This document shows, in pieces, positions 8,044 through 46,098 of a DNA stretch of 64,000 bases. Where the stretch lies: assembly GCF_015645445.1 (NCBI RefSeq), contig NZ_JADOGI010000008.1, forward strand, positions 1 to 64,000. The letters are read 5' to 3'. The notes below the pieces were generated by a model that saw only the letters and a program-made list of their open reading frames with translations, searched no databases and was not told where the DNA came from. A program made the position numbers and the translations under genes. This stretch comes from Nonomuraea cypriaca. Lineage in GTDB: Bacteria; Actinomycetota; Actinomycetes; Streptosporangiales; Streptosporangiaceae. How positions within the stretch are numbered: the first letter of the stretch is position 1; every line of letters begins with the position of its first letter.

Positions 8044-8061
8044 GTGAGGGGTGCTCCTTGG

Positions 8062-9096: not shown

Positions 9097-9168
9097 GCGG
9101 TTCCTCTCGGTGGGGTGAGGGGTTGGCGGGTACGCCGGCACCGTCGTCCCTCGTCTCTCCGACCCCGA

Positions 9169-9209: not shown

Positions 9210-9212
9210 AGT

Positions 9213-31609: not shown

Positions 31610-31950
31610 GTGAACACCTCCCAAGAGGCCGGTCACCTGCCGGTCTCCGCTTCCTTCTTCTCCTCTTCGGAGTCATCGGGGAGCGCCGCTTCGGTCGTGC
31701 GGAACGGTCCTGCGGCCGGGCCTGTCGCGGCGGTGGCGTGAGGACCGACCGCGCGATCGAAGGTGTTGGCACTCTCCAACGAAGAGTGCTAATTCCTATG
31801 TAACACCGAGCGCACCGGGCAGGCAACTCCCCCTGCCCAACGGGCGGCGGGGCAGCCGGAACAGGGGCTTCGCTAGGCTGAGGTCATGGTTAACGTACGC
31901 CGTCGAGTCATGTGCCCCGCCGCGCGTGTTCAGCGACCCGCCGAGGACCG

Positions 31951-32751
31951 GTGAGCGGGCAGGAGCGGCCGGCGGAGTTCGTTCAGTCACTCGAACGCGG
32001 CCTGTTGATCATCAGGAGCTTCACCCCCCGGCATTCCCGGATGACGTTGACGGAGGTCGCCGAGCGGACGCACATGCCCAGGTCGGCCGCGCGGCGCTTC
32101 CTGCTCACCCTGGAGAGCCTCGGCTACGTCCGGCAGGACGGGCGGTATTTCTCGTTGAGTCCTTCCGTGCTGGAGCTCGGTTACAGCTATCTGTCCTCGG
32201 TTCATCCTTGGGACGCGGCGCATCCGCTGCTTGAGCACCTCAGCGACGACATCGACGAGAACGTCCTGGCGGGGGTCCTGGACGGCACCGACGTCGTGTG
32301 CGTGGACAGGACCAGCCGGCGGCTGGTGACGTTCGCGGTGTTCGTGGGCGGCCGGGTCCCCGCGCACGCCTCCTCGATGGGCCGCGCCATCCTCGCCCAC
32401 CTCGAACCGGAGGAGCTGGACCGCTATTTCGCCACCGCCGAGCTCGTCGCGGTGACCGAGGCGACCACCACGGACGAGCAGCGGTTGCGCGCCGAGCTCG
32501 CCCAGGTCAGGAAGCAGGGATGGGCGACGACCGAACACGAGCTGGAGCGCGGCCTGATGTCGGTCTCCGCCCCGGTCTTCGGCCCGAACGGCCAGGTGGT
32601 CGCGGCCATCAACGTGTCCGCGCACGGAGGCCGGCTGAGCCAGGCCGACGTCGAGGCGCGCATCAGCCCGCCGCTGCTCGACTGCGCCCGCAACGTGAGC
32701 ATCCTGTTCGGCGCCCGGTCGGCGTTCAACGGATCCGAGCGCCGGAGATAG
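31951..32751 (+). CDS. IclR-family regulator (PcaR/PcaU-like)
   Basis: The 266-residue protein has an N-terminal winged helix (EFVQSLERGLLIIRSF...MTLTEVAERTHMPRSAARRFLLTLESLGYV in outline) and the IclR GAF-like effector domain with PAHASSMGRAILAHL and SVSAPVFGPNGQVVAAINVS. The opening SLERGL and SYLSS segments resemble the PcaU/PcaR subgroup that senses aromatic or carboxylic acids. GTG 31951 follows CGAGGA. It converges with the end of the eleven-gene catabolic operon, one base apart, and is its likely regulator through the inverted repeat at 44393-44410. Confidence 0.85.
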   Translation: MSGQERPAEFVQSLERGLLIIRSFTPRHSRMTLTEVAERTHMPRSAARRFLLTLESLGYVRQDGRYFSLSPSVLELGYSYLSSVHPWDAAHPLLEHLSDDIDENVLAGVLDGTDVVCVDRTSRRLVTFAVFVGGRVPAHASSMGRAILAHLEPEELDRYFATAELVAVTEATTTDEQRLRAELAQVRKQGWATTEHELERGLMSVSAPVFGPNGQVVAAINVSAHGGRLSQADVEARISPPLLDCARNVSILFGARSAFNGSERRR

Positions 32752-32752
32752 G

Positions 32753-33757
32753 TCAGCCGAGGGCCTGGATGTCCGCGACCGCCCTGGCGAAGGACCGCCA
32801 GTCGGTGTCCCCACGCGGCGCCGGCAGCTGAACGGCGTCGACCAGGCCGCCGAAGCGTTCGCCGACCGCCGCGCCGATCCCCTCGTACGGCGCCACGGCG
32901 CAGAAGAGTTCGAGCACCTCGTCATCGACCTTCGAGGCGAGCTCGTCCCACCGTCCCTCGCGTACCGTCCGCTGCAGCTCCTCCCCCAGGTCGTCCAGCC
33001 CATGGTGGGCGAGAACGGGCAGGTAGGAACGGGTGGACCCGTAGAACCCGACCCTCCTCCTGACGTGTTCGCGGGCCGCGCGCACGTCCTCCGCCGTCGC
33101 GCCGGTGGCCACGAAGCCGCCGCCGGTGACGCGCACTTCTCCGCTCGTGCGAGCCGCGCCGGTGATCGTGGGGAGGGCGACGTCGGACACGTACGCGCGG
33201 GTGCTGAACGGATGCAGCCGCACGCCGTCGCACAGGGACGCGGCGGTCGTGAGGTTGTAGCGGTTCACCGCGGCCAGGTCGACGGGAATCGGCGCATGGT
33301 CAGACGCGGGCCGGAACTCCGGGGTCATCAGGGTGTGCCGGTAGAACGGCCCCTCGTGGCGCAGCTCGCCGCCGGTTTCCCACGCCCGCCAGATGGCCCG
33401 CAGCGCGGAGACGTAGTCACGCATCCGTGGTCCAGGCGAGTCCCACGCAGTCGAGAAGCGTTCCTCGATGTGCCGTCTGACCTGGGTGCCGAGCCCGAGC
33501 CTGAACCGGCCCCCGCTGTGGTCGGCGAGCATCCGCGCCTGCGTGGCCAGCACCATCGGGCTGCGCGGGAACGCGATCGTGACCGCCGTGGCGAGCTCCA
33601 CGCGGGAGGTGGCCGACGCGACGGCCATCAGCGTGAGCAGCGGATCGCGGGTGACCTCCGCGTCGCAGACTGTGTCGACCCCGGCCTGCTCCAGACGGGC
33701 GGCCAGCTCGGGCACGTCGCCCAGCGGAACGTCGCGCAGGCTCACTTCGACCCTCAT
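32753..33757 (-). CDS. LLM-class (luciferase-like, probably F420-dependent) oxidoreductase
   Basis: The 334-residue protein has the bacterial luciferase-like barrel: LARLEQAGVDTVCDAEV, SRVELATAVTIAFPRSPMVLATQARMLADHSGGRFRLGLGTQVRRHIE and RMRDYVSALRAIWRAW. The TIM3612/F420-LLM annotation for such actinobacterial proteins is typical; cofactor F420 rather than FMN is inferred. Its ATG overlaps the acyl-CoA dehydrogenase stop (ATGA). It is the last gene of the catabolic operon and may carry out a hydride transfer or oxygenation on an acyl-CoA or the ketone released by the aldolase. Confidence 0.8.
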   Translation of the reverse strand: MRVEVSLRDVPLGDVPELAARLEQAGVDTVCDAEVTRDPLLTLMAVASATSRVELATAVTIAFPRSPMVLATQARMLADHSGGRFRLGLGTQVRRHIEERFSTAWDSPGPRMRDYVSALRAIWRAWETGGELRHEGPFYRHTLMTPEFRPASDHAPIPVDLAAVNRYNLTTAASLCDGVRLHPFSTRAYVSDVALPTITGAARTSGEVRVTGGGFVATGATAEDVRAAREHVRRRVGFYGSTRSYLPVLAHHGLDDLGEELQRTVREGRWDELASKVDDEVLELFCAVAPYEGIGAAVGERFGGLVDAVQLPAPRGDTDWRSFARAVADIQALG

Positions 33758-34986
33758 CGGGCATGCACCTCCGCGCCGGGGATTCCGTGCCGCAAGAGGT
33801 TCCTGGCGATGGTCACCCGGTGGATCTCCGACGCGCCCTCGACGATGCGCCAGACGCGGACGAGACGGTAGTAGTACTCGATCGGCAGTTCCTTGCCCAG
33901 CCCCATGCCGCCGTGCGCCTGCAGGCAGCGGTCGGCCACCTGCTGCAGCAGCTCGGTGCCGAGCACCTTGGCCGTGGACGCCTCGAATCTGATGTCGCCT
34001 ACGCCCGCGTCCAGCTTGGCCGCGGCGTCCCGGTTGACCAGCCGGCTGGTGTGCAGGCCGATGCCGGCGTCGGCGATCCAGTTCTGGATGGTCTGCCGGG
34101 CCGCGAGCGGCTCGCCGAAGGTCACCCGCTCCTTCGCGTACGCCATCATCATGCCGAGCAGCCGCTCGGTGGCGCCCACGCAGCGGGCGGCGATCTCCAG
34201 GCGGCGCACGGACAACCGGTTCTGCATGGGCACGAACGCGTCGCCGACGTCGCCGAGCACCTGCTCGTCCCCGAGTTCGACGTCGTCGAAGCGGATCTCG
34301 CACGGCCGGTAGTTGGAGATCGTCGGCAGCCGCCGCTCGACCACCACCCCTGGCGTGCCACGGTCGACGAGAAAGGCGGTCATGCCGCCCCGGCTGCCCT
34401 TCTCGCGATCGGTCACGGCCACCACGATCAGGAAGTCGGCCCAGTCCGCCTTGCCGATCCACTTCTTGCGCCCGTTGAGCACCCACCGGCCGCCGGCGCG
34501 CCTGGCCGTCGTTTCGATGCCCGACACGTCCGAGCCCGCGCCGGGCTCGGTGATCGCCACGCCTGAGGTGATCTCCCCCCGCGCGTACGGGTCCAGATAG
34601 CGCGCCCGCTGCCCGGCGTCGCAGGCGGCCGACAGCCAGTGCAGGTTCGGCGAGTCCGGCGGCAGCACGAACGGCACGATGGTCTTGGCCATCTCCTCCA
34701 CGGCCGCCATCTTGTCTAGGTTCGTCAGCCCGAGGCCGCCGTACTCCGCGGGAACGTCGATCCCCCACAGGCCACGCTCGCGGGCCGCGGCCAGCAGCCG
34801 CTCATAGACCTCGGGCGGCAGGTCGCCGACGGGGTCGAACAGATAGCTCTTGCCGGGCTCGGCGGCGAACGGCTCGGTGCGGCTCGACGCTTCGAGCTCC
34901 CATCTGATGACGTCCGGCTCCAGCGGCAGGAGCTCGTCGTCGACGAACGCGCGTACCCGCTGCCTGAGGTCTTCCGCGGCCTTCAT
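33754..34986 (-). CDS. Acyl-CoA dehydrogenase
   Basis: The 410-residue flavoprotein has the three-domain acyl-CoA dehydrogenase fold. The FAD/substrate motif is ITSGVAITEPGAGSDVSGI with GRWVLNGRKKWIGKADWADF, and the C-terminal helical domain has LQAHGGMGLGKELPIEYYYRLVRVWRIVEGASEIHRVTIARNLL. It introduces a 2,3 double bond into an acyl-CoA. AGGAGGAA sits 8 bases before ATG 34986; the longer frame to 35007 has no site. It lies 24 bp after the PrpD gene and overlaps the LLM gene. It supplies the enoyl-CoA for the hydratase encoded upstream in the same operon. Confidence 0.9.
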   Translation of the reverse strand: MKAAEDLRQRVRAFVDDELLPLEPDVIRWELEASSRTEPFAAEPGKSYLFDPVGDLPPEVYERLLAAARERGLWGIDVPAEYGGLGLTNLDKMAAVEEMAKTIVPFVLPPDSPNLHWLSAACDAGQRARYLDPYARGEITSGVAITEPGAGSDVSGIETTARRAGGRWVLNGRKKWIGKADWADFLIVVAVTDREKGSRGGMTAFLVDRGTPGVVVERRLPTISNYRPCEIRFDDVELGDEQVLGDVGDAFVPMQNRLSVRRLEIAARCVGATERLLGMMMAYAKERVTFGEPLAARQTIQNWIADAGIGLHTSRLVNRDAAAKLDAGVGDIRFEASTAKVLGTELLQQVADRCLQAHGGMGLGKELPIEYYYRLVRVWRIVEGASEIHRVTIARNLLRHGIPGAEVHAR

Positions 34987-35010
34987 GGTCAGTTCCTCCT
35001 GGGTCATGGG

Positions 35011-36354
35011 TCAGGTGAGCACGGCGAGCACATCGCGGACCGGGCGGTCCGCCCAGCGGCGCAGGGCGGCGGCGAAGGGCCGGGCGAGCGGGGCGCGACC
35101 GCCGTGCTCGAAGCAGTCCACGGCTTTCGCGGTGAGCTCCTCCAGGGTCAGGGGGGCGGCCGCGCTGCCCCGCAGGGTCTCGGCCCGGCCCCGGAGCACC
35201 CGTCCATCGGTGAGGTGGAGGCTCACCTCGGCCCAGCGGGGCGCCATCGGGGTGTCGCTCTCAGCCGCCTGTACGCGGGCGAGCAGCCGCTGCGCCTGCG
35301 GTCGCTTCACGGCCTCGTCGGTGAAGCTGCCGAGGCGGGGCCGGCCGTCGAGCAGGGCCGCGGCCATGCCGTACTCCATGCTGAACTTGGCCTCCAGCCC
35401 GGTGGCCGGACGGTGGTGGATCAGCGGGGTGAGCGCCGCGCCGCTGGTTCGCACGTCCACGCGGACGACGTCCTCGGCGTTCACGTCCTGCTCGGTGCGC
35501 AGGTCGAGCACCGCGTCCAGAGCGCGGTGGGCGGCGTAGCACATGGGGTACTTCTTGACGTCCAGGCCGCTGGTACGCAGCTCTCCTGGGGCGGCGCCGA
35601 GTTCGTCGAGCAGATCGTGGAGCCGGCGGGTGATGCCGTCGTCGCCGCCGTACAGGCGGGTGAAGCCTGCGGGGCCGTCCAGCGCGCCGTGGCCCGCCGT
35701 GACGCCGGCCCTGGCCGCGAGCGCGGAACGTACGGCGCTCGCGCATGCGGCGCCGACCTGGAAGGACTTCGCCGGCGTGCCGAAGTTCTCCCGGGTGCCC
35801 GAGCACTGCCCGGCGAACAGCCCGATGGCGTCGGCGATCTGCTCGGCGTCCAGCCGCAGCAGCCGGGCGGCGGCCACGGTCGCGCCGATGCCGCCGATCG
35901 TCGTGGTGCTGTGCCAGCCGGCCGCGTAGTGCGGGACGGCCATCGCCTTCGCCAGCTTGAGCATCACCTCAAAGCCGACGGCGTAGGCGCCGGCCACGGC
36001 GGACCCGTCGGCGTCCTCGGCCCCGGCGAGGGCGAGCAGTCCCGGGATGATCGCGATGCTCGGGTGGCCGCGCAGCGGCGAGGTGACGTCGTCGTAGTCG
36101 AGCACGTGTCCGGCCGCCCCGTTGACCAGGGCTGCCTGCTCGGGAGACACGGGCGGCCCGCCCGTCCACAGCCGCGCGGCTCCGCCCTGGGAGACGGTGG
36201 AGGTCAGCGCGTGGACGACCGGGTCGGCACGGGCGGCGACGGCGACGGCGACGGTGTCGAGCACCGCCCGGCCGACGGCGTCGACGACGTCCGGGGACGC
36301 CTCCGGCGCCGAGGCGGCGTACCGGCCGACGCGTAGCGCCGCGGGGGCGGTCAT
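35011..36354 (-). CDS. MmgE/PrpD-family protein
   Basis: The 447-residue protein belongs to the 2-methylcitrate dehydratase / cis-aconitate decarboxylase / iminodisuccinate epimerase family: DYDDVTSPLRGHPSI, GWHSTTTIGGIGATVAAARLL, FGTPAKSFQVGAACASAV, KKYPMCYAAHRALDAVL and KFSMEYGMAAALLDG. Members act on polycarboxylates by removing or adding water, or by decarboxylation, without metal. With a tricarboxylate transporter in the operon, a di- or tricarboxylic acid substrate is plausible. The start overlaps the preceding CoA-transferase stop (ATGA). The residues of the H-Y-K active site are not assigned here. Confidence 0.85.
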   Translation of the reverse strand: MTAPAALRVGRYAASAPEASPDVVDAVGRAVLDTVAVAVAARADPVVHALTSTVSQGGAARLWTGGPPVSPEQAALVNGAAGHVLDYDDVTSPLRGHPSIAIIPGLLALAGAEDADGSAVAGAYAVGFEVMLKLAKAMAVPHYAAGWHSTTTIGGIGATVAAARLLRLDAEQIADAIGLFAGQCSGTRENFGTPAKSFQVGAACASAVRSALAARAGVTAGHGALDGPAGFTRLYGGDDGITRRLHDLLDELGAAPGELRTSGLDVKKYPMCYAAHRALDAVLDLRTEQDVNAEDVVRVDVRTSGAALTPLIHHRPATGLEAKFSMEYGMAAALLDGRPRLGSFTDEAVKRPQAQRLLARVQAAESDTPMAPRWAEVSLHLTDGRVLRGRAETLRGSAAAPLTLEELTAKAVDCFEHGGRAPLARPFAAALRRWADRPVRDVLAVLT

Positions 36355-37763
36355 CGGAGTGCTCCCGCTGCTCGGTAGGCCGCGATCTGCTCGTCGTCCA
36401 GTCCGAGCACCTCCCTGCACACCTCGTCGGTGTGCTCGCCCAGCAACGGCGCGGAGCGGGTGGGCCGCACGGGCGTGCCGGTGAGACGGAACGGCGGCGC
36501 GTTGTAGAGGCTGGGCCCCATCTCCGGGTGGTCCAGGCGCAGCCAGTGCTCGCGGGCCGCGAGTTGCGGATCGCGGTCGACCAGGTCGGCGGTGTTCTGG
36601 ACGACCCCGGCGGGCACCCCGGCCGCGCGCAGCTCCCCGGCCAGCGCGACGGCGTCACGGCCGGCCACGGCGGCGCCGATCAGCCGGTTCAGCCGGTCGC
36701 GGTCACGGTGCCTGGCCGCCTCGTGCCGCCATTCCGGCTTGTGATCCGGCCTGCCGTCGGGCTCGTGGTCAGGCCTGTGGCCGGGCTCGTGGTCAGGCCT
36801 GTGGCTGGGCTCGTCGTCGGCCTTGTCGTGGGGCTCGTCGTGGGGCTCGTCGTGGGGCTCGTCGTGGGGCTCGTCGTGGGGCTCGTCGTGGGGCTCGTCG
36901 TGGGGCTCGTCGTGGGGCTCGTCGTGGGGCTTGTCGTCGGGCTCGTCGTCGAGGCCGAGTATCCGGACGAGCGACTCCCACTGCTCGTCGCGGAGCACCG
37001 AGATCGCGATCCACCGGTCATCTCCGGCGCAGCGGTACACGCCGTGCGGCGCCCGCCGTGGGTGGTCGTTGCCGAGCGGGCCTGCGTCCCTGCGGTTGAC
37101 GGTCCAGTCCATCAGCAGCGGTCCGAGCACGGCGATGGTCGGCTCGGTCTGCGCGATGTCGATGTACTGGCCGCGTCCCGTACGCCGCCGATGGCGCAGG
37201 GCGGCGAGCACGGCGAAGGCGGCGTGGCACGGGTTCGGGACGTGGTCGGGATAATTGGTGCCGGTCCCGACCGGCTCACGGCCGGGCAGGCCGGTGAAAT
37301 GGTGCAGGCCGATCAGCGCGCTGATCGTGATCCCGTAACCGAGGTAGTCGCGTTCAGGGCCGCTGTCGCCCTGCATCGACATGGCCAGGTAGACGGCTCG
37401 CGGGTTGATCCGGCGCACGTCCTCCCAGCCGAGGCCGAAGCGTTCCATGGTGCCTGGCGTGAAGTTGTTGGTGACCACGTCGCTCTCTGCGACCAGCCGG
37501 CGGGCCAGCTCGCGGCCGCCCTCGGACTTCAGGTCGAGGGCGAGGCTGCGCTTGCTGGTGTTGCGGTCGGCGAAGTAGCCGCTGCGGTTGACGCCCTTCC
37601 GCCCGCCGGCGAACGGCGGGCTGAGCCTGATCCCGTCGATCTTCGCCCGGCTCTCCACCTTGATCACGTCCGCGCCGTGGTCGGCGAGCAGCTTGGTGGT
37701 GAACGAGCCCGCCCCGACCCAGCAGAAGTCGGCGACCCGGATGCCGGAAAGCGGCGGCGTCAT
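36351..37763 (-). CDS. Family III CoA transferase with (HDEP)n insertion
   Basis: The 470-residue CaiB/BaiF-type enzyme has ADFCWVGAGSFTTKLLADHGADVIKVE, KRSLALDLKSEGG, and the catalytic Asp at about residue 173 (NYPDHVPNP). Ordinary members have about 390-410 residues. The excess is a charged insert at about 272-345 consisting of DEPH tetrapeptides (eight perfect 12-bp copies at 36829-36924) plus degenerate HRPDHEPG-type repeats. It interrupts the small-domain region after WESLVRILGLDDEP; the C-terminal domain resumes as RDRLNRLIGAAVAG. Its start overlaps the stop of the next upstream CoA transferase. Confidence 0.85.
   Translation of the reverse strand: MTPPLSGIRVADFCWVGAGSFTTKLLADHGADVIKVESRAKIDGIRLSPPFAGGRKGVNRSGYFADRNTSKRSLALDLKSEGGRELARRLVAESDVVTNNFTPGTMERFGLGWEDVRRINPRAVYLAMSMQGDSGPERDYLGYGITISALIGLHHFTGLPGREPVGTGTNYPDHVPNPCHAAFAVLAALRHRRRTGRGQYIDIAQTEPTIAVLGPLLMDWTVNRRDAGPLGNDHPRRAPHGVYRCAGDDRWIAISVLRDEQWESLVRILGLDDEPDDKPHDEPHDEPHDEPHDEPHDEPHDEPHDEPHDEPHDKADDEPSHRPDHEPGHRPDHEPDGRPDHKPEWRHEAARHRDRDRLNRLIGAAVAGRDAVALAGELRAAGVPAGVVQNTADLVDRDPQLAAREHWLRLDHPEMGPSLYNAPPFRLTGTPVRPTRSAPLLGEHTDEVCREVLGLDDEQIAAYRAAGALR
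36829..36936. repeat. 12-bp minisatellite inside a CoA transferase gene
   Basis: The unit TGGGGCTCGTCG is repeated eight times without a mismatch (36829-36924), followed by one single-base variant (36925-36936). Degenerate copies extend the low-complexity region to about 36740-36950. Because the unit is a multiple of three, copy-number change keeps the frame and only lengthens the HDEP tract. Expansion by slippage is probable. Confidence 0.9.
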
Positions 37764-38956
37764 GCGCTCACCCCCGGACGTCCGATCTCGCTCAGCACCT
37801 GCTCGGTGTGCTCGCCGAGCCGCGGCGCACGGCCGTTCGTCCGCCAGGGCGTCTCACTCAGCAGGTACGGCGCCCCCGGCATCAGCGTGCCGAGCCCCGT
37901 GTTCTCCACGAAGAAACCCCGGTGCGCGAGCTGCCGGTTGTCCACGATGTCGGCCGCGGTGCTGACCGGGCACAACGGCACCCGCCTCCGCTGCGCCGCG
38001 GCGTACAGCTCGGCCTTCGTCCGCCGTGCGGCGAAGGGGCCGAACACCCTGTTGAAGATCCCCTTGGCCTCGTCCCCGGTGACGAACTCCCGCTCACCCC
38101 ACCGGTCGCCGCGCAGCGCCGCCGCTTCGGGGACGTCCTCGGATTCGAGCCAGTCGACGAGGTTGGGCCAGAACCGGTTGCCGCCGATCCCGCCGGCCAG
38201 GATGTAGATCTCGCCGTCCGCGCAGGCGAAGACCCCGGCCCCGGCCCGGTCGCCGACGCCGCTGCCCCTCCCCCGTACCGTGCCTTCCAGGTCGTAGAAC
38301 TGCACGGCGTTCTCCAGCGCGAGCACCACGCACTCCTGGACGGAGACGTCCACGTGCTGGCCGGCCCCGGTGAGCTCCGCCGAGGTGAGCGCCAGCATCG
38401 AGGCGACGGCCCCGAACAGGCCGCCCATCGCCATCGCCTGGTCCCCGGCGGCGCGTACCGGCGGGCCGTCCCGGTACCCGCCCAGCGCCAGCAGTCCGCC
38501 GAGCGCCAGCAGGACCAGGTCGTCCGCCTCGTCCTGGCCGTACGGGCCGTCCTGCCCGAACGGCGTGATGCTGGTCATCACCAGAGCCGGATTGCCCTCG
38601 CTGAGATCGGCCCAGGCCAGGCCACGCGCCGCGGCCACCCCGGGGCGTTCCGTCTCGATGACGAGGTCTGCCGTACGGGCCAGGTCGCGCAGGGTGCGAG
38701 CGCCCTCGGCGCGGTCGAGGTCCAGGACGACGCTGCGCTTGCCGGTGTTGGCGTACGCGAAGGCGAGCCCGGAGTCGGGACCGGGCACGTCGCCGGCGAA
38801 CGGCGGCTCGTGCCGGAGCGGGGTGCCGTCCGGCGGTTCGACCAGGATCACGTCGGCGCCCAGTTCGGCGAACAGCTTGCCGCAGTAGTTGCCCATCGGC
38901 CCGGACAGGTCGAGCACCCGCAGCCCCTCCAGCGCGGCCGGCGCCGTGGTGGTCAC
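37760..38956 (-). CDS. Family III CoA transferase
   Basis: The 398-residue CaiB/BaiF enzyme has VLDLSGPMGNYCGKLFAELGADVILVEPP, the KRSVVLDLDRAEG loop, and the catalytic Asp172 in RAAGDQAMAMGG at the position of formyl-CoA transferase Asp169. It moves CoA from an acyl-CoA donor to a carboxylic acid through a mixed anhydride and glutamyl/aspartyl-CoA thioester route. GTG 38956 overlaps the DUF35 stop (GTGA), and its own stop overlaps the second CoA transferase. Tandem family III genes suggest a heteromeric enzyme, as in succinyl-CoA:benzylsuccinate CoA transferase BbsEF. Confidence 0.9.
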   Translation of the reverse strand: MTTTAPAALEGLRVLDLSGPMGNYCGKLFAELGADVILVEPPDGTPLRHEPPFAGDVPGPDSGLAFAYANTGKRSVVLDLDRAEGARTLRDLARTADLVIETERPGVAAARGLAWADLSEGNPALVMTSITPFGQDGPYGQDEADDLVLLALGGLLALGGYRDGPPVRAAGDQAMAMGGLFGAVASMLALTSAELTGAGQHVDVSVQECVVLALENAVQFYDLEGTVRGRGSGVGDRAGAGVFACADGEIYILAGGIGGNRFWPNLVDWLESEDVPEAAALRGDRWGEREFVTGDEAKGIFNRVFGPFAARRTKAELYAAAQRRRVPLCPVSTAADIVDNRQLAHRGFFVENTGLGTLMPGAPYLLSETPWRTNGRAPRLGEHTEQVLSEIGRPGVSA

Positions 38957-39369
38957 GTCGCCTCCGGGGTGAACCTGGGGATGGTGACGGTCTCGGTGAC
39001 CGGGTCGCAGGCCAGCCGCACCCGCAGCCCGACCTGGACCTCCTCGTTGGGCACCCCGACGACGTTGCTGAACATCCGCGGGCCCTCGTCGAGCTGCACG
39101 AGCACCACGTTGTACGGCACGTCATCGGCGAAGGCCCGGTTGTAGACCTGGTGGAAGACGATCCTGGACATGACCTCGCCCCGGCCGGACAGGGGAACCC
39201 AGGTGGTCTCCTTGGCCAGGCACTGCGGGCAGATCCGGCTGATCGGATACCTGATATGTCCGCATTTTTCGCACTTTTGCAGGGTCAGGGTCTCGGTCTC
39301 GCGCAACGCGTCCCAGAAGGGCCGTGTCTCGTCGGTCAGCTCCGGCAGCGGCTTGGTGTAGTCGGTCAT
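38953..39369 (-). CDS. DUF35 OB-fold / zinc-ribbon acyl-CoA-associated protein
   Basis: The 138-residue protein has an N-terminal helix, a rubredoxin-like zinc ribbon with C33-x2-C36 and C47-x2-C50 (KCEKCGHIRYPISRICPQC), and a C-terminal OB fold (SRIVFHQVY...VVLVQLDEGPRMFSNVVG). DUF35 proteins form obligate complexes with thiolase-fold partners, for example the Ltp2-ChsH2 steroid aldolase and the BbsAB thiolase. Here the partner is the gene immediately upstream, with an ATGA overlap, so a 1:1 complex is strongly expected. Confidence 0.9.
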   Translation of the reverse strand: MTDYTKPLPELTDETRPFWDALRETETLTLQKCEKCGHIRYPISRICPQCLAKETTWVPLSGRGEVMSRIVFHQVYNRAFADDVPYNVVLVQLDEGPRMFSNVVGVPNEEVQVGLRVRLACDPVTETVTIPRFTPEAT

Positions 39370-40532
39370 CTAGTCAGCCCGTCCTTGCTCAGGATCATCG
39401 CGTTCGAGCAGTTCAGCGTCATGCCCCGGCCGGTCACCAGGCACACCTCCGCGTCCTCGACCTGCCGGGGCCCGCCCTGGCCGCGCAGCTGCCGCACCCC
39501 TTCGACGATGTGCAACCAGCCCTCCATGTACGACTCCGACAGGTTTCCGCCGGCGGTGTTGACCGGCAGGTCCCCGCCGAGCTGGATGCGGCCGCCCTCG
39601 ACGAAGGAGCCCGCTTCGCCCACGCCGCAGAACCCGGCGTGTTCCAGCCACAGCAGCACGCTGATCGTGAAGTTGTCGTAGAGCTGGGCCACGTCGACGT
39701 CCGACGGGCCGATGCCGGCCATCTTCCAGGCCCGGTCCAGCGCCTGCTTCTGGTGGGGCACGTACCACCAGTCCTCGCGTTCCAGCGTGCGGGTCGTGTA
39801 GCCCTGCCCCATCCCGGAGATGAACACCGGCGGCTGCCTGGTGTCGCGCGCGCGGGCGCGTTCCGCGGACGTGACGATGACGCACACGCCGCCGTCGCTG
39901 ATCAGGCAGCAGTCGAGCAGCCGCAGCGGCTCCACGATCCAGCGCGACGCCTGGTGGTCGGCGATCGTGATCGGCTTGCGCATGACGGCGTCGGGGTTCA
40001 TCGACGCGTGCCTGCGGCAGGCGACGGCGACCTCGGCGAGCTGCTCACTGGTCGTGCCGTAGAGGGCCATGTGACGGCTGGCCGCGACCGCGCTGTTGGC
40101 GGCGGCGCCCATCATGCCCCAGATGTCCCACGAATCCCCCCAGCCGGAGGCCCTGGAGAACCGGGACCCGCCGGTCTTGGCCGCGTCGCCGAACACGCAG
40201 GCCACGTTCGTGGCCATGCCGGTGCTGACCGCCATCGCGGCCGTCTGCACGAGCGCGCCCGCCGTGCCGCCGCCCATCGACATGCTGCCGGTGAACGCAG
40301 GGTCGATGCCGAGCGTCTCACCGAGCCGCAGGTAGTTGAGCGGGCCTTCGGGGGCCGTGGTGCCGGGGAAGGTCAGCAGTCCATCGATGTCCGACTTGTC
40401 GAGCCCGCTGTCGTCGAGCGCGGCCACGAACGCGTCGGCGGCCAGCGAGAGCTGGGTGCTGCCCGGCAGTTTGCCCTGGGCGGTCTTACCCACCCCGATG
40501 ATCGCGGCCTGGTCCTTCAGCGAATCCTTCAC
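39366..40532 (-). CDS. Thiolase-fold acyl-CoA aldolase candidate (Ltp2-like)
   Basis: The 388-residue thiolase-superfamily protein has AAIIGVGKT at the start and VNTAGGNLSESYMEGW near the end. The nucleophilic Cys of thiolases is absent (SMSMGGGTAG at 83-92 replaces the usual CATG/CSSG), and the GHP His is replaced in SESYMEG. Two tyrosines, Y285 (AQLYDNF) and Y335 (ESYMEG), are 50 residues apart, the spacing of the catalytic Tyr294 and Tyr344 reported for the steroid side-chain aldolase Ltp2. I therefore call it a retro-aldolase rather than a thiolase. GTG 40532 has AGGGG upstream. Its DUF35 partner follows. Confidence 0.8.
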   Translation of the reverse strand: MKDSLKDQAAIIGVGKTAQGKLPGSTQLSLAADAFVAALDDSGLDKSDIDGLLTFPGTTAPEGPLNYLRLGETLGIDPAFTGSMSMGGGTAGALVQTAAMAVSTGMATNVACVFGDAAKTGGSRFSRASGWGDSWDIWGMMGAAANSAVAASRHMALYGTTSEQLAEVAVACRRHASMNPDAVMRKPITIADHQASRWIVEPLRLLDCCLISDGGVCVIVTSAERARARDTRQPPVFISGMGQGYTTRTLEREDWWYVPHQKQALDRAWKMAGIGPSDVDVAQLYDNFTISVLLWLEHAGFCGVGEAGSFVEGGRIQLGGDLPVNTAGGNLSESYMEGWLHIVEGVRQLRGQGGPRQVEDAEVCLVTGRGMTLNCSNAMILSKDGLTR

Positions 40533-40553
40533 AACGCTTCCCCTCATCGTCTG

Positions 40554-41327
40554 TCATCGGCCCTGGAAACGCGGCGCCCGCTTCTCGGCGAACGCCTTAC
40601 GGCCCTCGATGCGGTCCTCGGTGTCCCGGAGCAGGCCCCACACGTAGCTCTCCAGGTCCAGGCCGCGCTCCAAAGGCAGGTCGGGGCCCTCGGTGGCGAG
40701 CCGCTTGACGGCCCGTACGGCGAGCGGCGCGTTACGGGCGATGCGGTCCGCGACCTCCCTGGCCCGCCGCAGCAGTTCGCCCGCCGGGAGGACCTCGCTG
40801 ACCAGGCCCACCCGGTGCGCCTCCGCGGCGTCGATCCGATCGCCGGTGAGCAGCATCTGCATCGCCGTCGACCGCCCGATCATCCGGGTGAGCCGCTGGG
40901 TGCCGCCCGCTCCTGGAATGCTGCCGATCTGGACCTCGGCCAGACCGAACTGGGCCGTCTCGGAACAGATCCTGATGTCGCAGGCCAGGGCGATCTCCAG
41001 GCCGCCGCCGATCGCGTACCCGTTGATCGCCGCGATCACCGGTTTGTCCCTCGGGAACCCCTTGAGCAGATGGTCTCCCCCGTCGCCGAACGCGATCTGC
41101 GCGTACGACTCCGCCGGCGGCATCGTCCGCTTCAGGTCCGATCCCGTGCAGAAGGCGCGATCCCCCGCGCCGGTGATCAGCGCGACCCTGATGGACTCGT
41201 CGGTGTTCACCCGTTCCCACGCCGCGTGCAGCATGGCCCGGGTCTCGGGGTCGATGGAGTTCATCGCCTCCGGCCGGTTGAGCACGATCTCCGCGACCGT
41301 CCCCCGTACCTCTATGTCAACGGACAC
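40554..41327 (-). CDS. Enoyl-CoA hydratase
   Basis: The 257-residue crotonase-fold protein has both catalytic glutamates of rat enoyl-CoA hydratase: E111 in GYAIGGGLEIALACDIRI (Glu144) and E131 in FGLAEVQIGSIPGAGGTQRL (Glu164). The oxyanion-hole loops are intact. It adds water to an enoyl-CoA to give a 3-hydroxyacyl-CoA, which a retro-aldolase could cleave. GTG 41327 follows GAGGAGGAAA. It lies between tctA (25-bp gap) and the aldolase gene (21-bp gap) in the operon. Confidence 0.9.
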   Translation of the reverse strand: MSVDIEVRGTVAEIVLNRPEAMNSIDPETRAMLHAAWERVNTDESIRVALITGAGDRAFCTGSDLKRTMPPAESYAQIAFGDGGDHLLKGFPRDKPVIAAINGYAIGGGLEIALACDIRICSETAQFGLAEVQIGSIPGAGGTQRLTRMIGRSTAMQMLLTGDRIDAAEAHRVGLVSEVLPAGELLRRAREVADRIARNAPLAVRAVKRLATEGPDLPLERGLDLESYVWGLLRDTEDRIEGRKAFAEKRAPRFQGR

Positions 41328-41352
41328 GTGCCCGTTTCCTCCTCATCGTTGA

Positions 41353-42858
41353 TCATGCGGGCGTGGACGCACGCCTGCTTCTGGTGACCAGCCGCCAGAT
41401 CCCGCCGCCGAAGAGGACCACCGCGACGAGCAGCCAGAGGGCCGCGGCGATCGGGCGCTGGACGAAGTAGCCGAAGTCGCCCCGGCTCAGGAACAACCCC
41501 TCGCGCAGGTGCTTCTCCACCAGCGGTCCCAGCACCAGGCCGAGGACGAACGGGGCGAGGGTGAACGACAGCTTGCGCAGGAGGTAGCCCACGGCTCCCA
41601 TGGCGGCCAGCGTGTACACGTCGAGCAGGCTGTTGCGCACGCTGTAGCAGCCGATCGCCGCGATCACCACGATGGCGGGGAAGAGCAGCTGTTTGGGGAT
41701 ACGCAGCAGTTGCACCCACACGCTGACCAGGGGCAGGTTGAGCACCAGCAGCATCATGTTGGCCACGAACATCGTGCCGATGAGCGACCAGAAGATCTCC
41801 GGGTTGTCCTCGATCAGCAGCGGGCCCGGCTCGATGCCCTGCACCTCCATCGCGGAGATCACCAGGGCGAAGGTGGCCGAGAACGGCATGCCCAGCGACA
41901 GCAGCGGCACGAGCCCGCCGACGGCGGCCGCGTTGTTGGCGGCCTCGGGTCCCGCGACCCCTTCGACCGCGCCCGAGCCGAGGTTCGCGCGGTTGCGGGC
42001 GACGCTCTTCTCCAGCCGGTACGACGCGAAGCTCGACAGCGTCGCCGAGGGACCTGGCAGCAGGCCGAAGAGGAACCCCACGGCCGAACCCCGTCCCCAG
42101 GCGGGCACGGCGTCCCGCCACTCCGCGCGGGTGGGCATCAGTTCCCTGAGCCGGACGCTGGTGGGCCGCGCCGACCTCGACGGGTTCTCGACCAGCAGCA
42201 GCAACTCGGCGATGCCGAACAGGCCGATGCCCACGGGCACCAGGTCGATGCCGAGGGCCATCTCCGGCACGTTCAGCGTGTACCTGAACGTGCTGGTGAT
42301 CGCCTCCTGGCCCAGGGTGCCGAGCATCACGCCGACGATCATCGGCAGGAACCCACTGGCCGGGCTGCCGCCCGAGACGCGGGCCAGGGCGAGCAGGCCG
42401 CCGGCCACGAGCGCGAGATATTCGGCGGGGCCGAACAGCAGGCCGACGCCCGACAGCAGCGGGGAGAAGAACGTCACGAGGATGACGCCGATCGCGCCGG
42501 CGATGAACGAGCCGATCGCCATGACGCTCAGCGCGGCTCCCGCCCGGCCCTTCTTGGCCATCGCATGGCCGTCGACGGCGGTCATGACCGAGGCCGCCTC
42601 GCCTGGCATGTTCAGCAGGACCGCGGTCGTCGATCCGCCGTACATCGAGCCGACGTAGATCGCCGCGATCATGACGATGCCGACGATCGGCGACATGGAG
42701 AACGTCAGCGGCAGCACCAGCGCCGCGCCGGCCACCGGGCCGAGCCCGGGGAGCACCCCGATCACCGTGCCGGCCAGGGCGCCGACCAGCGCGGCCAGGA
42801 GCAGTTCAGGGGTGAGCGCCGATTCCAGCCCGAAGATCAGGCCCTCGACGGGGTTCAC
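41353..42858 (-). CDS. tctA: Tripartite tricarboxylate transporter TctA (second system)
   Basis: The 501-residue polytopic protein has TctA signatures GVLPGLGPVAGAALVLPLTF, YGGSTTAVLLNMPGEAASV and [17 protein letters not shown]. It is clearly a different paralogue from the TctA at 4908. The GTG start at 42858 is 3 bp after the tctB stop and is preceded by GGGGGG. It precedes the enoyl-CoA hydratase gene, linking uptake directly to acyl-CoA catabolism. Confidence 0.9.
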   Translation of the reverse strand: MNPVEGLIFGLESALTPELLLAALVGALAGTVIGVLPGLGPVAGAALVLPLTFSMSPIVGIVMIAAIYVGSMYGGSTTAVLLNMPGEAASVMTAVDGHAMAKKGRAGAALSVMAIGSFIAGAIGVILVTFFSPLLSGVGLLFGPAEYLALVAGGLLALARVSGGSPASGFLPMIVGVMLGTLGQEAITSTFRYTLNVPEMALGIDLVPVGIGLFGIAELLLLVENPSRSARPTSVRLRELMPTRAEWRDAVPAWGRGSAVGFLFGLLPGPSATLSSFASYRLEKSVARNRANLGSGAVEGVAGPEAANNAAAVGGLVPLLSLGMPFSATFALVISAMEVQGIEPGPLLIEDNPEIFWSLIGTMFVANMMLLVLNLPLVSVWVQLLRIPKQLLFPAIVVIAAIGCYSVRNSLLDVYTLAAMGAVGYLLRKLSFTLAPFVLGLVLGPLVEKHLREGLFLSRGDFGYFVQRPIAAALWLLVAVVLFGGGIWRLVTRSRRASTPA

Positions 42859-42861
42859 GGG

Positions 42862-43371
42862 TCAGCCCCCCATCAGCGCGCCGGCGGGCAGCCGCACGCC
42901 GAGCAGTTCGAGGAACACGTACGAGATGATCAGGCCGAGCAGGACGCCGTGGAGGACGGCCTTCCACCAGGGGCGGGTGCCGAGCACCCCGACCGCCGCG
43001 GCGCCGAACAGCGCCGCCGCGAGGTACTGGCCGATCAGCGGCAGCAGTAAGAGGTACACCACGATGATCCCGCCCAGTCCGAGGACGAACCGGCCCCGTC
43101 CCGGCGCGGCGCGCTCGTATTCGCCGGTCACCTTGGTGGTGAACCTCGCCTCGGCCATCGTGAGCACGCTGATCACCAGGCACCCCGCCCCGACGATGAT
43201 CGGGTACATCGCGGCCCCCGGCTGGGCCGTCGTGCCCATCGGAAGAGTGAACGCGTGGGCGGTGTAGACGGCTCCCACCGCGAACATCACCGCGCCGACG
43301 ATCATGCGCCCGCGGCGGACCCCGTCCAGGGACGCCTTCGGCGGAGAGACCACGGTCTCGGTCGTTTTCAT
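42862..43371 (-). CDS. tctB: Tripartite tricarboxylate transporter TctB (second system)
   Basis: The 169-residue membrane protein has four predicted helices with a short cytoplasmic N terminus and no extended acidic loop, so it is of normal family length. It has PGAAMYPIIVGAGCLVISVL and the C-terminal YVFLELLGVRLPAGALMGG typical of TctB. The ATG overlaps the tctC stop (ATGA). Confidence 0.9.
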   Translation of the reverse strand: MKTTETVVSPPKASLDGVRRGRMIVGAVMFAVGAVYTAHAFTLPMGTTAQPGAAMYPIIVGAGCLVISVLTMAEARFTTKVTGEYERAAPGRGRFVLGLGGIIVVYLLLLPLIGQYLAAALFGAAAVGVLGTRPWWKAVLHGVLLGLIISYVFLELLGVRLPAGALMGG

Positions 43372-44357
43372 GCCGGTCGCTCCTCCATGAACGCGTTGAT
43401 GCGCTCGTACTCTTCGCGGTATTCGTCGAGTTCGGCCTTGAGCTGGTCGGGCGTGAGCGACTCCAGGACGTAGCCCTTGTCCTCGGCGAACGCGCGGAAC
43501 TCCGCGGAGCGGACGGTGGCGTCGGCCGCACTCTGGAGCCGCTTCAACACCTCGGCGGGGATGCCCTTGGGGGCGATGACGTAGTAGGAGGCCGGCAGGG
43601 TCACGTCGTAGCCCGCTTCCACGACGGATTCGGCCTGCGGGAAGATCTTGTAGGGGCCGTCGTGGAAGACGCCGAGCACGCGCAGCTTGCCCGCCCGTAC
43701 GTGCTCCTTGACCGTGGGGGCGTAACCGGCGGTCGCGTCCACCTCCCCGCTGAGCAGCGCGGTCAGCGCCTCGCCACCGCCGCCGCTGAACGGGACGCCG
43801 GTGAACTCGACCCCGCCCGCCTGGCTGAGCCGCTGGATGGTCAGGTCGGGCGCGGTACGCGCACCGGAGTTGGAGATCTTGATCTGCCCCGGCCGGCGCC
43901 GCGCGTCGTCCATGAAGTCCTTGAACGTCCGCCAGGGGGCGTCGGCGCGGACCGCCAGGATCGTCGGCAGGTCGGCCAGCTTGACCAGCGGCTGGTAGTC
44001 GGCGGTCGAGTGATAGGGCAGGGCGTCGGTCAGGATGGGCTGGTAGGCGACCGCGCTGTTGGAGCTCAGTCCGATCGTGTAGCCGTCCGCCGCGGCCTTG
44101 ACGATCCGGCTGGTGCCGATCGTCGCCGAGCCGCCCTCTCGGTTCTCCACGACGATCGTGGTGCCGAGGTCCTTCTCGAGCTGACGGGTGAACTGCCTGG
44201 CGATCGGGTCGGTGGATCCGCCGGGCGCGTAGGGGACGACGAAGGTCAGCTCATCGGATGGGTAGGGGCCGTCGTCGCCGAATCCCGGGATCGCCGAGCA
44301 GCCGCTCAAGATCAATAGTCCGGCCACCGCCGCCGCGCTCCGCCGTTTGAACGTCAT
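43368..44357 (-). CDS. tctC: Tripartite tricarboxylate transporter binding lipoprotein TctC (second system)
   Basis: The 329-residue protein has a lipoprotein signal with lipobox LSGC (Cys near residue 20) and the Bug/TctC motifs VVPYAPGGSTDPIARQF, VVENREGGSATIG and DGYTIGLSSNS. The conserved Asp-containing loop near GGSTD binds a carboxylate through ordered water in Bug proteins. It is the first gene of the eleven-gene operon; the promoter region upstream holds a perfect inverted repeat at 44393-44410. Confidence 0.92.
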   Translation of the reverse strand: MTFKRRSAAAVAGLLILSGCSAIPGFGDDGPYPSDELTFVVPYAPGGSTDPIARQFTRQLEKDLGTTIVVENREGGSATIGTSRIVKAAADGYTIGLSSNSAVAYQPILTDALPYHSTADYQPLVKLADLPTILAVRADAPWRTFKDFMDDARRRPGQIKISNSGARTAPDLTIQRLSQAGGVEFTGVPFSGGGGEALTALLSGEVDATAGYAPTVKEHVRAGKLRVLGVFHDGPYKIFPQAESVVEAGYDVTLPASYYVIAPKGIPAEVLKRLQSAADATVRSAEFRAFAEDKGYVLESLTPDQLKAELDEYREEYERINAFMEERPA

Positions 44358-44392: not shown

Positions 44393-44410
44393 AGCGAACA
44401 AAAGTTCGCT
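44393..44410. promoter_or_regulatory. Perfect inverted repeat, candidate IclR operator of the catabolic operon
   Basis: AGCGAAC and GTTCGCT are separated by AAAA, giving an 18-bp perfect dyad 35 bp upstream of tctC and in the region shared with the divergent CoA transferase. IclR-family sites are often palindromes of this size. The IclR gene at 31951, at the other end of the operon, is the best candidate ligand. Confidence 0.6.
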
Positions 44411-44495
44411 CTCTGGATGCGTTACCGTGACGTTAAGGGGAGGTCACATGGGGTGTCAATGCATCATTTGCGACGAATCTCCGCTTTGTGATGGC

Positions 44496-44576: not shown

Positions 44577-44625
44577 CTGTTCTGTGGATGACAGACGCAT
44601 TAATTCCGTGCGGCCACCCGCAGAC

Positions 44626-46098
44626 ATGACGTCCGACCATTGCCGAACCAGGGAGTTCCTCGCCCAGATCTGGGCCGCGCTCGACGGCCACGCCGGCGAC
44701 CTCGACCGCGTCACCGTGACCGGCGACAGTGCCCTGCGGTCCGCGTTCGCCGTGACGGATCTCGCCGCGGCCGGTTTCGGGGCCGCCGGGCTGGCGCTCA
44801 GCCGGCTCGTGGCGACCGAGGGCGGCACGCCGCCGACCGTACGCGTGGACCGTACGCTGTCCAGCGGCTGGTTCGACCTGCCCGTCGGCCCCTCGCTGCC
44901 GCTGACACCGCAGCCGAGCAGGCCGCTGAGCACCACGCATCCGTGGATGACCGAGTTCAGGACGGCCGACGATCGCTGGCTCAGGGTGCAGGGGCTGTTC
45001 CCCCGGCTGCGGGCCCGCATCGCCGGCGCGCTGGGCGTCGCGGAGGATCCGGAGGCGGTCGCGGCGAAGGTGGCCGGGCACGACGCCGACGAGATCGAGC
45101 AGGTCCTCGTCGACGGGGGCGCGGCCGTGGCGGCGAGCCGCAGCCTGGCGGAGTGGCGGGCGCACCCGCAGGCCCGCGCGGTCGCCGCGGAGCCGCTCGT
45201 CGCCGTGGAGCCCGGCGGTGAGTCGCCGGAGTCGTGGCGCCCGACGCCGGGACGGCCGCTGGCCGGCATCCGGGTTCTCGACCTCACCAGGGTGGTCGCC
45301 GGGCCGATGGGCACCAGGTTCCTCGCGGCCTGCGGCGCCGAGGTGCTGCGGCTGGACGCGCCCGACGCCGACGAGACCACCTGGCGCGGCGGCGGGACCG
45401 ACGTCGGGCTGGGGAAGCGGTGGGCGGTGCTCGACCTGCGCACGGCCGAGGGCTGGCGGCGGTTTCTCGACCTGCTGGCCGGCGCCGACGTCCTCGTTCA
45501 CGGGTACCGTCCCGGCGCGATCGACGGGCTGGTGCCGCCGGACGTCCGCGCGGCCGTGCGGCCCGGACTCGTGGAGGTCGCGCTCAACGCGTACGGCTGG
45601 ACCGGCCCCTGGCGGGACCGCCGCGGTTTCGACACACTCGTGCAGTTCAGCACCGGACTGGCCGACGAGACGACGAGCTGGGCGCTGGAGGATCCCGGCA
45701 CGCGGACGCCGATCAACGCGCTGGGCCGCCTCGTGCCTCCCGACCGGCCGCGGCACCTGCCGGTGGAGGCCCTCGACTTCGCGACCGGCTACCAGGTCGC
45801 CGCCGCCGCGATCAACGGCCTGACCCGGCGCCTCACCACGGGCCTGGGCTCGGTGTCGCGGCTGTCCCTGGCGCGCACCGCCGCCCTGCTGGCCGATGCC
45901 GGGCGGCCCGCCGAGGAGCCGCCGATCGACCTCCCGCTGCTCGGGCCCACCGAGGACCGCGTGTACGCCACCCCGCACGGCCCGGTGCGCCGGCTCCGCT
46001 TCCCGGTGGAGATCGACGGCAATCCGCTGTTCTGGGAGCGGCCGTACGAGGCGGTCGGCAGCTCGACCCCGCAGTGGTCCGCGACGCCACCGGCATGA
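44626..46098 (+). CDS. Family III CoA transferase, divergent from the catabolic operon
   Basis: The protein (490 residues from ATG 44626) has an N-terminal extension of about 210 residues, itself related to the small domain of CoA transferases. The classical start of a CaiB domain follows (LAGIRVLDLTRVVAGPMGTRFLAACGAEVLRLD), then KRWAVLDLRTAEG and a catalytic Asp in VEALDFATGYQVAAAAINGL. It should exchange CoA between an acyl-CoA and a free acid. GTG 44584 is an alternative start; neither has a good ribosome site. Divergent placement across the 44393-44410 dyad suggests co-regulation with the eleven-gene operon. Confidence 0.8.
   Translation: MTSDHCRTREFLAQIWAALDGHAGDLDRVTVTGDSALRSAFAVTDLAAAGFGAAGLALSRLVATEGGTPPTVRVDRTLSSGWFDLPVGPSLPLTPQPSRPLSTTHPWMTEFRTADDRWLRVQGLFPRLRARIAGALGVAEDPEAVAAKVAGHDADEIEQVLVDGGAAVAASRSLAEWRAHPQARAVAAEPLVAVEPGGESPESWRPTPGRPLAGIRVLDLTRVVAGPMGTRFLAACGAEVLRLDAPDADETTWRGGGTDVGLGKRWAVLDLRTAEGWRRFLDLLAGADVLVHGYRPGAIDGLVPPDVRAAVRPGLVEVALNAYGWTGPWRDRRGFDTLVQFSTGLADETTSWALEDPGTRTPINALGRLVPPDRPRHLPVEALDFATGYQVAAAAINGLTRRLTTGLGSVSRLSLARTAALLADAGRPAEEPPIDLPLLGPTEDRVYATPHGPVRRLRFPVEIDGNPLFWERPYEAVGSSTPQWSATPPA

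Follow-up and report, generated by a model that had tools for sequence, protein, structure and literature searches.

Benzylsuccinate is degraded in anaerobic toluene degraders by the Bbs pathway (BbsEF, BbsG, BbsH, BbsCD and BbsAB), in which the CoA-transferase uses succinyl-CoA as the CoA donor and the products are benzoyl-CoA and succinyl-CoA (PMC10818641). In the itaconate/methylsuccinate cluster of Cupriavidus and Pseudomonas (Ict, Ich, Ccl, Mcd and Msi), an MmgE/PrpD protein encoded beside an acyl-CoA dehydrogenase is the isomerase of (S)- and (R)-methylsuccinate, and the substrates of the characterised MmgE/PrpD members share a C4 dicarboxylate backbone (PMC12290011). Among the thiolase-fold aldolases that have a DUF35 partner, Ltp2 acts on an alpha-methyl-branched substrate and uses Tyr294 of its YDHF motif as base, the His of this motif as oxyanion hole and Tyr344 as acid, and Sal uses the Tyr and Cys of YDCY and carries Gly where thiolases have the nucleophilic Cys (PMC12329534). 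Here we report the analysis of an eleven-gene operon of Nonomuraea cypriaca, located in a stretch of 64,000 nucleotides (nt) of contig NZ_JADOGI010000008.1 (the window), which belongs to a draft genome of 11.5 Mb (GCF_015645445.1). We propose, with somewhat more confidence than doubt, that the operon is an import and catabolism unit for a 2-substituted succinate, which would be degraded by a variant of the Bbs pathway that ends in a retro-aldol cleavage.

The eleven open reading frames (ORFs) are collinear on the minus strand (32753-44357) and their transcription order runs leftward from tctC:

43368..44357, minus strand: TctC, solute receptor of a tripartite tricarboxylate transporter, operon gene 1 (PF03401, 172 bits)
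42862..43371, minus strand: TctB, small membrane subunit (PF07331)
41353..42858, minus strand: TctA, large membrane subunit (PF01970, 471 bits)
40554..41327, minus strand: enoyl-CoA hydratase (ECH) of the crotonase type (PF00378, ECH_1)
39366..40547, minus strand: predicted thiolase-fold retro-aldolase (Thiolase_C_1; Gly93, His265, Tyr290, Asn292 of YDNF, Tyr340, Arg374)
38953..39369, minus strand: DUF35/ChsH2-type partner with zinc ribbon and OB fold (zf-ChsH2 and OB_ChsH2_C)
37760..38956, minus strand: CaiB1, family III CoA-transferase subunit without the catalytic Asp (CoA_transf_3; nearest to 9fn0 chain A)
36351..37763, minus strand: CaiB2, catalytic family III CoA-transferase subunit (CoA_transf_3; nearest to 9fn0 chain B; DEPH-repeat insert)
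35011..36354, minus strand: MmgE/PrpD protein (PrpD), probable epimerase of a free 2-substituted succinate (MmgE_PrpD_N/C; His97/Tyr143)
33754..35007, minus strand: acyl-CoA dehydrogenase (ACAD; Pfam family above cut-off)
32753..33757, minus strand: LLM-class F420-dependent oxidoreductase, accessory (Bac_luciferase; TIGR03617 (MSMEG_2256), 334 bits with a cut-off of 278)

The initial annotation of this DNA had described eleven minus-strand genes with this span, these families and frequent overlaps, and each of these points was confirmed: all frames are open, the named Pfam families of all eleven products exceed their cut-offs, and 4-nt stop/start overlaps occur at six of the ten junctions. The overlapping pairs are TctC/TctB, thiolase-fold/DUF35, DUF35/CaiB1, CaiB1/CaiB2, CaiB2/PrpD (with the ATG at 36354 as the start of PrpD) and ACAD/LLM, the last being counted on the assumption that the LLM gene starts with the ATG at 33757. 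The four remaining junctions are gaps of 3, 25, 6 and 3 nt, and the 25-nt gap separates TctA from ECH. All three components of a tripartite tricarboxylate transporter are thus encoded together; a comparison of TctC with the PDB matched several receptors of its family, with no clear substrate among them.

Related loci were collected by a scan of 84,980 species, each represented by a single genome; the query was the thiolase-fold protein aligned with one relative, and the patterns were W[DG]IWGM[MF] and DWWY[VL]PH. As a result, 50 further loci encoding the thiolase-fold protein (62-89% identical) were found in Actinomycetota, Alpha- and Betaproteobacteria, Chloroflexi and Rokubacteria, one of them labelled Thermomonas and two (L068 and L095) lying in the same genome. 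The 51 orthologues referred to below include the window, and a more distant copy at L079 (34% identical) was excluded from the 52 clustered sequences. The controls were 24 hand-picked paralogues, mostly high-ranking matches, from the window's class only, 21 of them from other genomes and three from the genome that contains the window, with two loci shorter than 15 kb.

The retro-aldol step rests on the active site of the thiolase-fold protein. Residue columns were read against a Cys-bearing true thiolase (P0017 of L125), and in all 51 orthologues Gly93 replaces the nucleophilic Cys, Tyr290 the His of HDAF and Tyr340 the His of GHP, which supports the retro-aldol cleavage predicted by the initial annotation. 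Asn292 stands for the Ala of HDAF and Arg374 for one Gly of the GGG loop, again in 51 of 51. The C-terminal loop of thiolases has a catalytic role. Gly93, Tyr290, Asn292, Tyr340 and Arg374 lie outside the scan patterns, and the conservation of Trp143 and His265 (the latter in 51/51) is partly a product of selection by these patterns.

These residues also bear on the possibility that the protein is a conventional 3-ketoacyl-CoA thiolase in the ordinary beta-oxidation of a branched acid. The thiolase fold itself and the DUF35-partnered thiolase of the Bbs pathway (PDB 7pxp) would fit such a role, but the loss of the Cys and of both His in every orthologue makes it highly improbable, and the NCBIfam equivalogs for BbsB (112 bits against a cut-off of 750) and BbsA (41 of 250) are both far from being reached. 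The best NCBIfam names for the protein ('lipid-transfer protein' and 'acetyl-CoA acetyltransferase') all fall below cut-off. Short-chain dehydrogenases/reductases (SDRs), the only dehydrogenase family covered by the neighbour count, occur within 5 kb at 3 of 51 orthologue loci, compared with 5 of 24 paralogue controls and 5 of 9 rows of true thiolases. This scarcity fits a retro-aldolase, because retro-aldol cleavage needs no hydroxyacyl-CoA dehydrogenase. The nine true-thiolase rows are weaker matches to the BbsB equivalog, the cut-off of which was exceeded in none of 399 genomes, those with BbsB-like true thiolases included; they were used as the thiolase-type comparison and represent a single lineage of close relatives (88-98% identity to the first row, L124 and L130 being the same place). 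Three of these rows (L121, L123 and L124) are only ~4 kb long, and the five SDR-bearing rows are five of the six that are longer than ~4 kb.

By sequence, the nearest solved relatives are the putative thiolase 4u4e and the aldolases Ltp2 and Sal, and the same structures (4u4e, Ltp2 and Sal-Shy) occupied the top Foldseek ranks for an AlphaFold2 model with a mean pLDDT of 88 (below 50 for residues 128-144). Tyr290 and Tyr340 align with the Tyr pair of Ltp2; thus, both Tyr of an Ltp2-type site, the one in YDxF and the second one, are present, and the oxyanion-hole His of YDHF is absent, with Asn292 at its place in all 51 orthologues. Given that Ltp2-ChsH2 and Sal-Shy are the nearest characterised folds, the operon might serve the degradation of a steroid or terpenoid side chain. 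We consider this quite improbable: the operon encodes a crotonase and no MaoC-type hydratase, it has TctCBA, PrpD and Bbs-type CoA-transferase subunits instead, and its motif is YDNF rather than YDHF or YDCY. Four Cys of the DUF35 partner are conserved in all 47 clustered homologues. More tentatively, and as a suggestion that we would rate below an even chance, the Tyr-Asn-Tyr site with the loop Arg could define a third catalytic type of thiolase-fold aldolase, which would cleave 2-(1-hydroxyalkyl)succinyl-CoA to an aldehyde or ketone and succinyl-CoA in a self-priming cycle.

The CoA-transferase genes point to activation of the Bbs type. CaiB1 matched chain A of benzylsuccinate CoA-transferase (9fn0) with 296 bits and the next protein with 136, and CaiB2 matched chain B with 325 bits and the next protein with 171. 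In a joint alignment, the column that we take to hold the catalytic Asp of family III CoA-transferases contained Asp in 52 of 52 CaiB2-type sequences from 42 loci and in none of 37 clustered CaiB1-type homologues. Two paralogous family III subunits are thus encoded together and one of them bears the Asp, as in BbsEF, where the single Asp-bearing subunit was judged by eye from the alignments to the 9fn0 chains. Based on the one-to-one chain match and the missing Asp of CaiB1, the two proteins most likely form one heteromeric enzyme. For the same reasons we rejected two independent CoA-transferases; the initial annotation, which had listed two family III CoA transferases, had the families right, and the count of enzymes is most likely one.

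CaiB2 of the window has an in-frame tandem repeat (36736-36949, approximately residues 272-346) that encodes a DEPH-repeat insert; it consists of a 12-nt unit in 11.9 copies with 93% matches (36807-36949) alongside a 24-nt unit, and the insert is missing from the aligned CaiB2 homologues of L048, L059 and L087.

The catalytic residues of ECH and ACAD are largely retained. At the two positions of the catalytic Glu pair of ECH, assigned by reference to rat crotonase, Glu occurs in 46 and 44 of 50 clustered homologues, and the catalytic Glu position of ACAD is Glu in 13 of 13 clustered homologues. As for the MmgE/PrpD protein, His83, Asp86, His97, Tyr143, His148, Lys196 and Lys267 are invariant in the 23 aligned sequences (of 37 in the cluster). 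They match the residues H85, D88, H99, Y145, H150, K198 and K266 of iminodisuccinate epimerase (PMC12290011), comprising both the His/Tyr base pair of the epimerase, which methylsuccinate isomerase has too, and its carboxylate-binding His, Asp and Lys. Asp is shared by the window protein and iminodisuccinate epimerase, and methylsuccinate isomerase has Glu at this position (PMC12290011). A profile of the 23 sequences scored 474 bits with iminodisuccinate epimerase, 385 with B. subtilis 'IRG1', 277 with cis-aconitate decarboxylase and 86 with 2-methylcitrate dehydratase. The last of these functions is further disfavoured by a score of 54.6 of 950 bits with the NCBIfam 2-methylcitrate dehydratase equivalog. 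Cis-aconitate decarboxylase is disfavoured by its lower profile score and by Tyr143, found in all 23 aligned sequences; no Tyr occupies this place in mammalian IRG1 (PMC7347537). Judging by these residues, PrpD is a probable epimerase of a free 2-substituted succinate. The earlier suggestion that PrpD acts on a polycarboxylate can therefore be narrowed to this substrate class, with residues unlike those of the mammalian decarboxylase at Tyr143, and the import, CoA transfer, dehydrogenation and hydration that had been read from family names are now supported by active-site residues as well.

A 2-substituted succinate is proposed as the substrate because the Bbs-type CoA-transferase, the succinate-type epimerase and the tripartite tricarboxylate-type importer agree on it. 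We infer the substrate class, the order of the steps, the position of the CoA and the products as follows. TctCBA would import a dicarboxylic acid with a C4 backbone that is branched at C2, the (S) and (R) forms of which would be interconverted by the MmgE/PrpD protein. The Bbs-like heteromer of CaiB1 and CaiB2 would then move CoA from succinyl-CoA to the acid, ACAD would introduce an alpha,beta-double bond, and hydration by the crotonase would yield a beta-hydroxyacyl-CoA. Finally, the thiolase-fold/DUF35 pair may cleave the thioester by a retro-aldol reaction with Tyr290 and Tyr340 in acid-base roles, a step that would require neither a hydroxyacyl-CoA dehydrogenase nor free CoA. With the CoA on the carboxyl beside the branch, as in Bbs, the products would be an aldehyde or ketone and succinyl-CoA, and the CoA donor would be regenerated. 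The LLM enzyme may handle the carbonyl product in some actinobacteria.

A different arrangement, unlikely in our view and yet with an appreciable share of the probability, is a C4-CoA route as in the methylsuccinate/itaconate cluster: the CoA would be on the carboxyl far from the branch, hydration would put the hydroxyl group on the tertiary carbon that bears a carboxyl, and the aldolase would yield acetyl-CoA and a 2-oxo acid, in a citramalyl-CoA-lyase-like reaction performed by another fold. The functional set described in PMC12290011 is identical (CoA transferase, ACAD, MmgE/PrpD isomerase, hydratase and C-C lyase), an aldolase instead of a thiolase would make sense for a tertiary alcohol, which is not oxidisable, and the D-2-hydroxyacid dehydrogenases and thiamine diphosphate (TPP)-enzyme-family proteins of related loci, which could process 2-oxo acids, favour this route. 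Against it, the CoA-transferase pair is nearest to the benzylsuccinate type, the product of which would need CoA next to the branch for benzoyl-CoA and succinyl-CoA to be formed (PMC10818641), and the Tyr-Tyr site is that of Ltp2, an aldolase of alpha-branched side chains (PMC12329534). On these two grounds, we favour CoA next to the branch and thus a carbonyl compound plus succinyl-CoA.

The recurrence of the genes at the related loci also bears on the proposed pathway. Presence was counted from tblastn homologues of the window proteins (E up to 1e-8) anywhere in the stretch of a locus, and the counts refer to homologues, which are neither proven orthologues nor proven operon members. At the 50 loci, homologues were found for DUF35 in 49, ECH in 46, CaiB2 in 45, CaiB1 in 42, PrpD in 32, TctC in 27, ACAD in 24, TctA in 7, LLM in 4 and TctB in 3; when only loci of 18 kb or more are considered (33 in all), the respective numbers are 33, 32, 32, 31, 26, 17, 15, 6, 4 and 2. 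The full set of CaiB1, CaiB2, ECH and DUF35 is present at 38 of 50 loci. PrpD, TctC, TctA, TctB and LLM are each absent from all 24 paralogue control loci, where the best copies are 37-46% identical; among the 13 loci counted as actinobacterial, PrpD occurs at 9, TctC at 3 and TctA at 6, compared with 0 of 24 controls each. Distances between homologues correlate with those of the aldolase (Mantel r of 0.89 for CaiB2 (n=42), 0.88 for CaiB1 (n=36), 0.78 for PrpD (n=26), 0.77 for DUF35 (n=46), 0.69 for ECH (n=45), 0.65 for ACAD (n=13) and 0.57 for TctC (n=27); p <= 0.001 each by permutation), correlations to which shared species history contributes. In Pseudonocardia sp. MH-G8 (L048), all eleven proteins have homologues (61-87% identical), the genes of which are arranged as in the window apart from an additional LLM-type gene that separates TctA from ECH, and an IclR gene (81% identical) again lies tail to tail with them.

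The eleven genes could alternatively be a modular set of loosely linked Tct-type genes for several acids, not one linear pathway. The LLM orthologue cluster occurs in only 3 of 51 loci, TctB and TctA are as rare as given above, and PrpD and ACAD are variable; the gene overlaps, the complete order in L048, the common palindrome described below and the correlated distances of the core nevertheless render it improbable. The LLM gene, with the window counted among its three loci, is one of the least conserved members, and the LLM enzyme falls outside the conserved core.

Several observations weigh against a succinate-specific retro-aldol pathway. The set of CaiB1, CaiB2, ECH and DUF35 is incomplete at 12 of 50 loci (several of which are short contigs), ACAD is not enriched over the controls (14 of 24), and a PrpD at least 45% identical to that of the window is found at 12 of 50 loci only, the rest being more distant or absent. 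L047, with an aldolase 89% identical, has no PrpD between CaiB2 and ACAD; its contig ends inside ACAD. In L049, neither TctA nor TctB was found. Within the aldolase itself, the paralogues share Gly93 (24/24), Tyr290 (24/24) and Tyr340 (21/24), so that these residues indicate an aldolase-type superfamily and not a succinate substrate. Asn292 stands in place of the His or Cys of the characterised aldolases and the catalytic details are therefore extrapolated. Related loci carry D-2-hydroxyacid dehydrogenase (11/51), PrpF (13), UbiD (4 loci) and TPP-enzyme-family proteins (5/51), which hint at other or additional chemistry.

Asn292 (0/24; 15 Cys, 7 His and 2 Ala) and Arg374 (0/24) are missing from the paralogues. 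The aldolase-type site is thus a trait of the wider family, and Asn292 and Arg374 mark the clade of the operon; altogether 27 positions, Asn292 included, are conserved in at least 49 of 52 clade sequences and in at most 3 of 24 paralogues. Since D-2-hydroxyacid dehydrogenase, aldehyde dehydrogenase (10/51 loci), PrpF and TPP-enzyme-family proteins occur in relatives, the substrate or product probably differs between lineages. Neighbour genes were called by a codon model with rough starts and a few genes missed, and the Pfam name of each neighbour cluster is that of one representative.

Among these neighbours, five loci with a variant of the aldolase core (L085, L086, L087, L088 and L093) all have a TPP-family enzyme and an RpiR regulator; four encode UbiD decarboxylase (not L087), four another LLM protein (not L086), and L085, L086 and L088 also a UbiX-type flavoprotein. 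In the actinobacterial loci L062, L075 and L078, the core is flanked by several PrpD genes, a FAD_binding_2 protein, an MFS transporter and a citrate-synthase-family protein with an HTH domain. A different LLM-type gene (~267 aa, cluster K20), missing from the window, lies upstream of ECH in L047, L048, L049 and L050; in three of these it sits between TctA (TctC in L049) and ECH, where the window has the 25-nt gap.

Orthologues (E <= 1e-120) were detected in 3 of 199 other sampled genomes of the window's family and in none of the 10 same-genus genomes listed, a rarity that suggests acquisition of the operon by horizontal transfer.

Next to the operon, a candidate regulatory pair and one divergent gene were recognised:

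31912..32751, plus strand: IclR-family regulator, convergent with the operon (tail to tail, 1-nt gap)
44394..44409, no strand: palindrome GCGAAC-N4-GTTCGC, 37-52 nt upstream of the tctC start
44584..46098, plus strand: divergent CoA_transf_3 protein of 504 aa, association with the operon doubtful, homologue at 8 of 50 loci

The palindrome upstream of tctC reads GCGAAC-TTTT-GTTCGC and has two sites in the whole genome. At and near this site, 25 of 27 nt are common to the window, L047 and L048, with flanking upstream DNA that hardly aligns, and L048 has an IclR homologue at the same place. The core CGAAC-N4-GTTCG occurs in 9 of 130 loci, including the window (L003), L047 and L048; in the remaining loci its position is not obviously upstream of a comparable operon, and the palindrome was not seen upstream of tctC in L049. 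The conserved palindrome and the adjoining IclR gene, neither of which the initial annotation mentions, suggest a dedicated, putative operator through which IclR would control the unit. Scans of the analysed DNA gave no sigma-70 promoter-like site (nothing beyond shuffles), three terminator-like sites compared with 3.0 expected from shuffles, no Rfam match at the gathering threshold and no tRNA.

The conserved domain of the divergent CoA_transf_3 protein starts at residue 226, and its homologues are found in none of the 24 controls. An ORF antisense to it (44464-46122) was rejected as a high-GC artefact, having no Pfam match. Elsewhere in the window, a second Tct system (4908-9222) comprises TctA (4908-6482) and TctC (7060-8043) and adjoins an Ldh_2-family malate/L-lactate dehydrogenase (8062-9222).

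If the proposed pathway is true, the Bbs logic for 2-substituted succinates extends beyond anaerobic hydrocarbon degraders, the last two Bbs steps can be replaced by a single retro-aldol step, and a function is assigned to a thiolase-fold clade of about 50 genomes. It would also provide concrete substrates to assay with MmgE/PrpD, CaiB and TctC, large families with few substrates known, and succinyl-CoA-releasing aldolases would be useful for synthesis. Should a third type of aldolase exist as well, its product succinyl-CoA would be the next CoA donor, and alkyl- or arylsuccinates could be split independently of oxygen, with neither a hydroxyacyl-CoA dehydrogenase nor a thiolase, across distant phyla. 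No recognisable description of the operon was found in the open-licence literature searched. The initial annotation did not recognise the combination, which is fair for the exact set of genes, and the chemistry is close to that of the Bbs pathway and the methylsuccinate/itaconate cluster.

Like the Bbs pathway, the operon has CoA-transferase subunits nearest to those of 9fn0 and, at the level of enzyme type, an ACAD, a hydratase and a DUF35-partnered thiolase-fold enzyme, and its CoA donor is probably succinyl-CoA. Unlike Bbs, it has no BbsCD-type dehydrogenase, its thiolase-fold enzyme has an aldolase-type site and remains far below the cut-offs of the BbsA and BbsB models, and it adds PrpD, TctCBA, LLM and IclR. 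Ict, Ich and Ccl of the itaconate/methylsuccinate cluster belong to families other than those of their counterparts in the operon, which has a CoA-transferase pair of family III, a hydratase of the crotonase type and, as lyase, the thiolase-fold protein with its DUF35 partner. With Ltp2-ChsH2 and Sal-Shy it shares the thiolase fold, the DUF35 partner and the Tyr of YDxF, and with Ltp2 the second Tyr, but its enzyme has YDNF, not YDHF or YDCY. The Burkholderiales clusters with BbsB-like proteins (L125 and L127-L130) resemble the operon in that homologues of CaiB, PrpD and TctC lie close by and most of them also have DUF35 or IclR, and differ in having a true thiolase (Cys in NACSS, HDAF), an SDR and a single detected CaiB homologue; they look like the thiolase counterpart of the operon. 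In sum, the operon combines Bbs-like activation and oxidation with a probable methylsuccinate-type epimerase and a distinct thiolase-fold aldolase.

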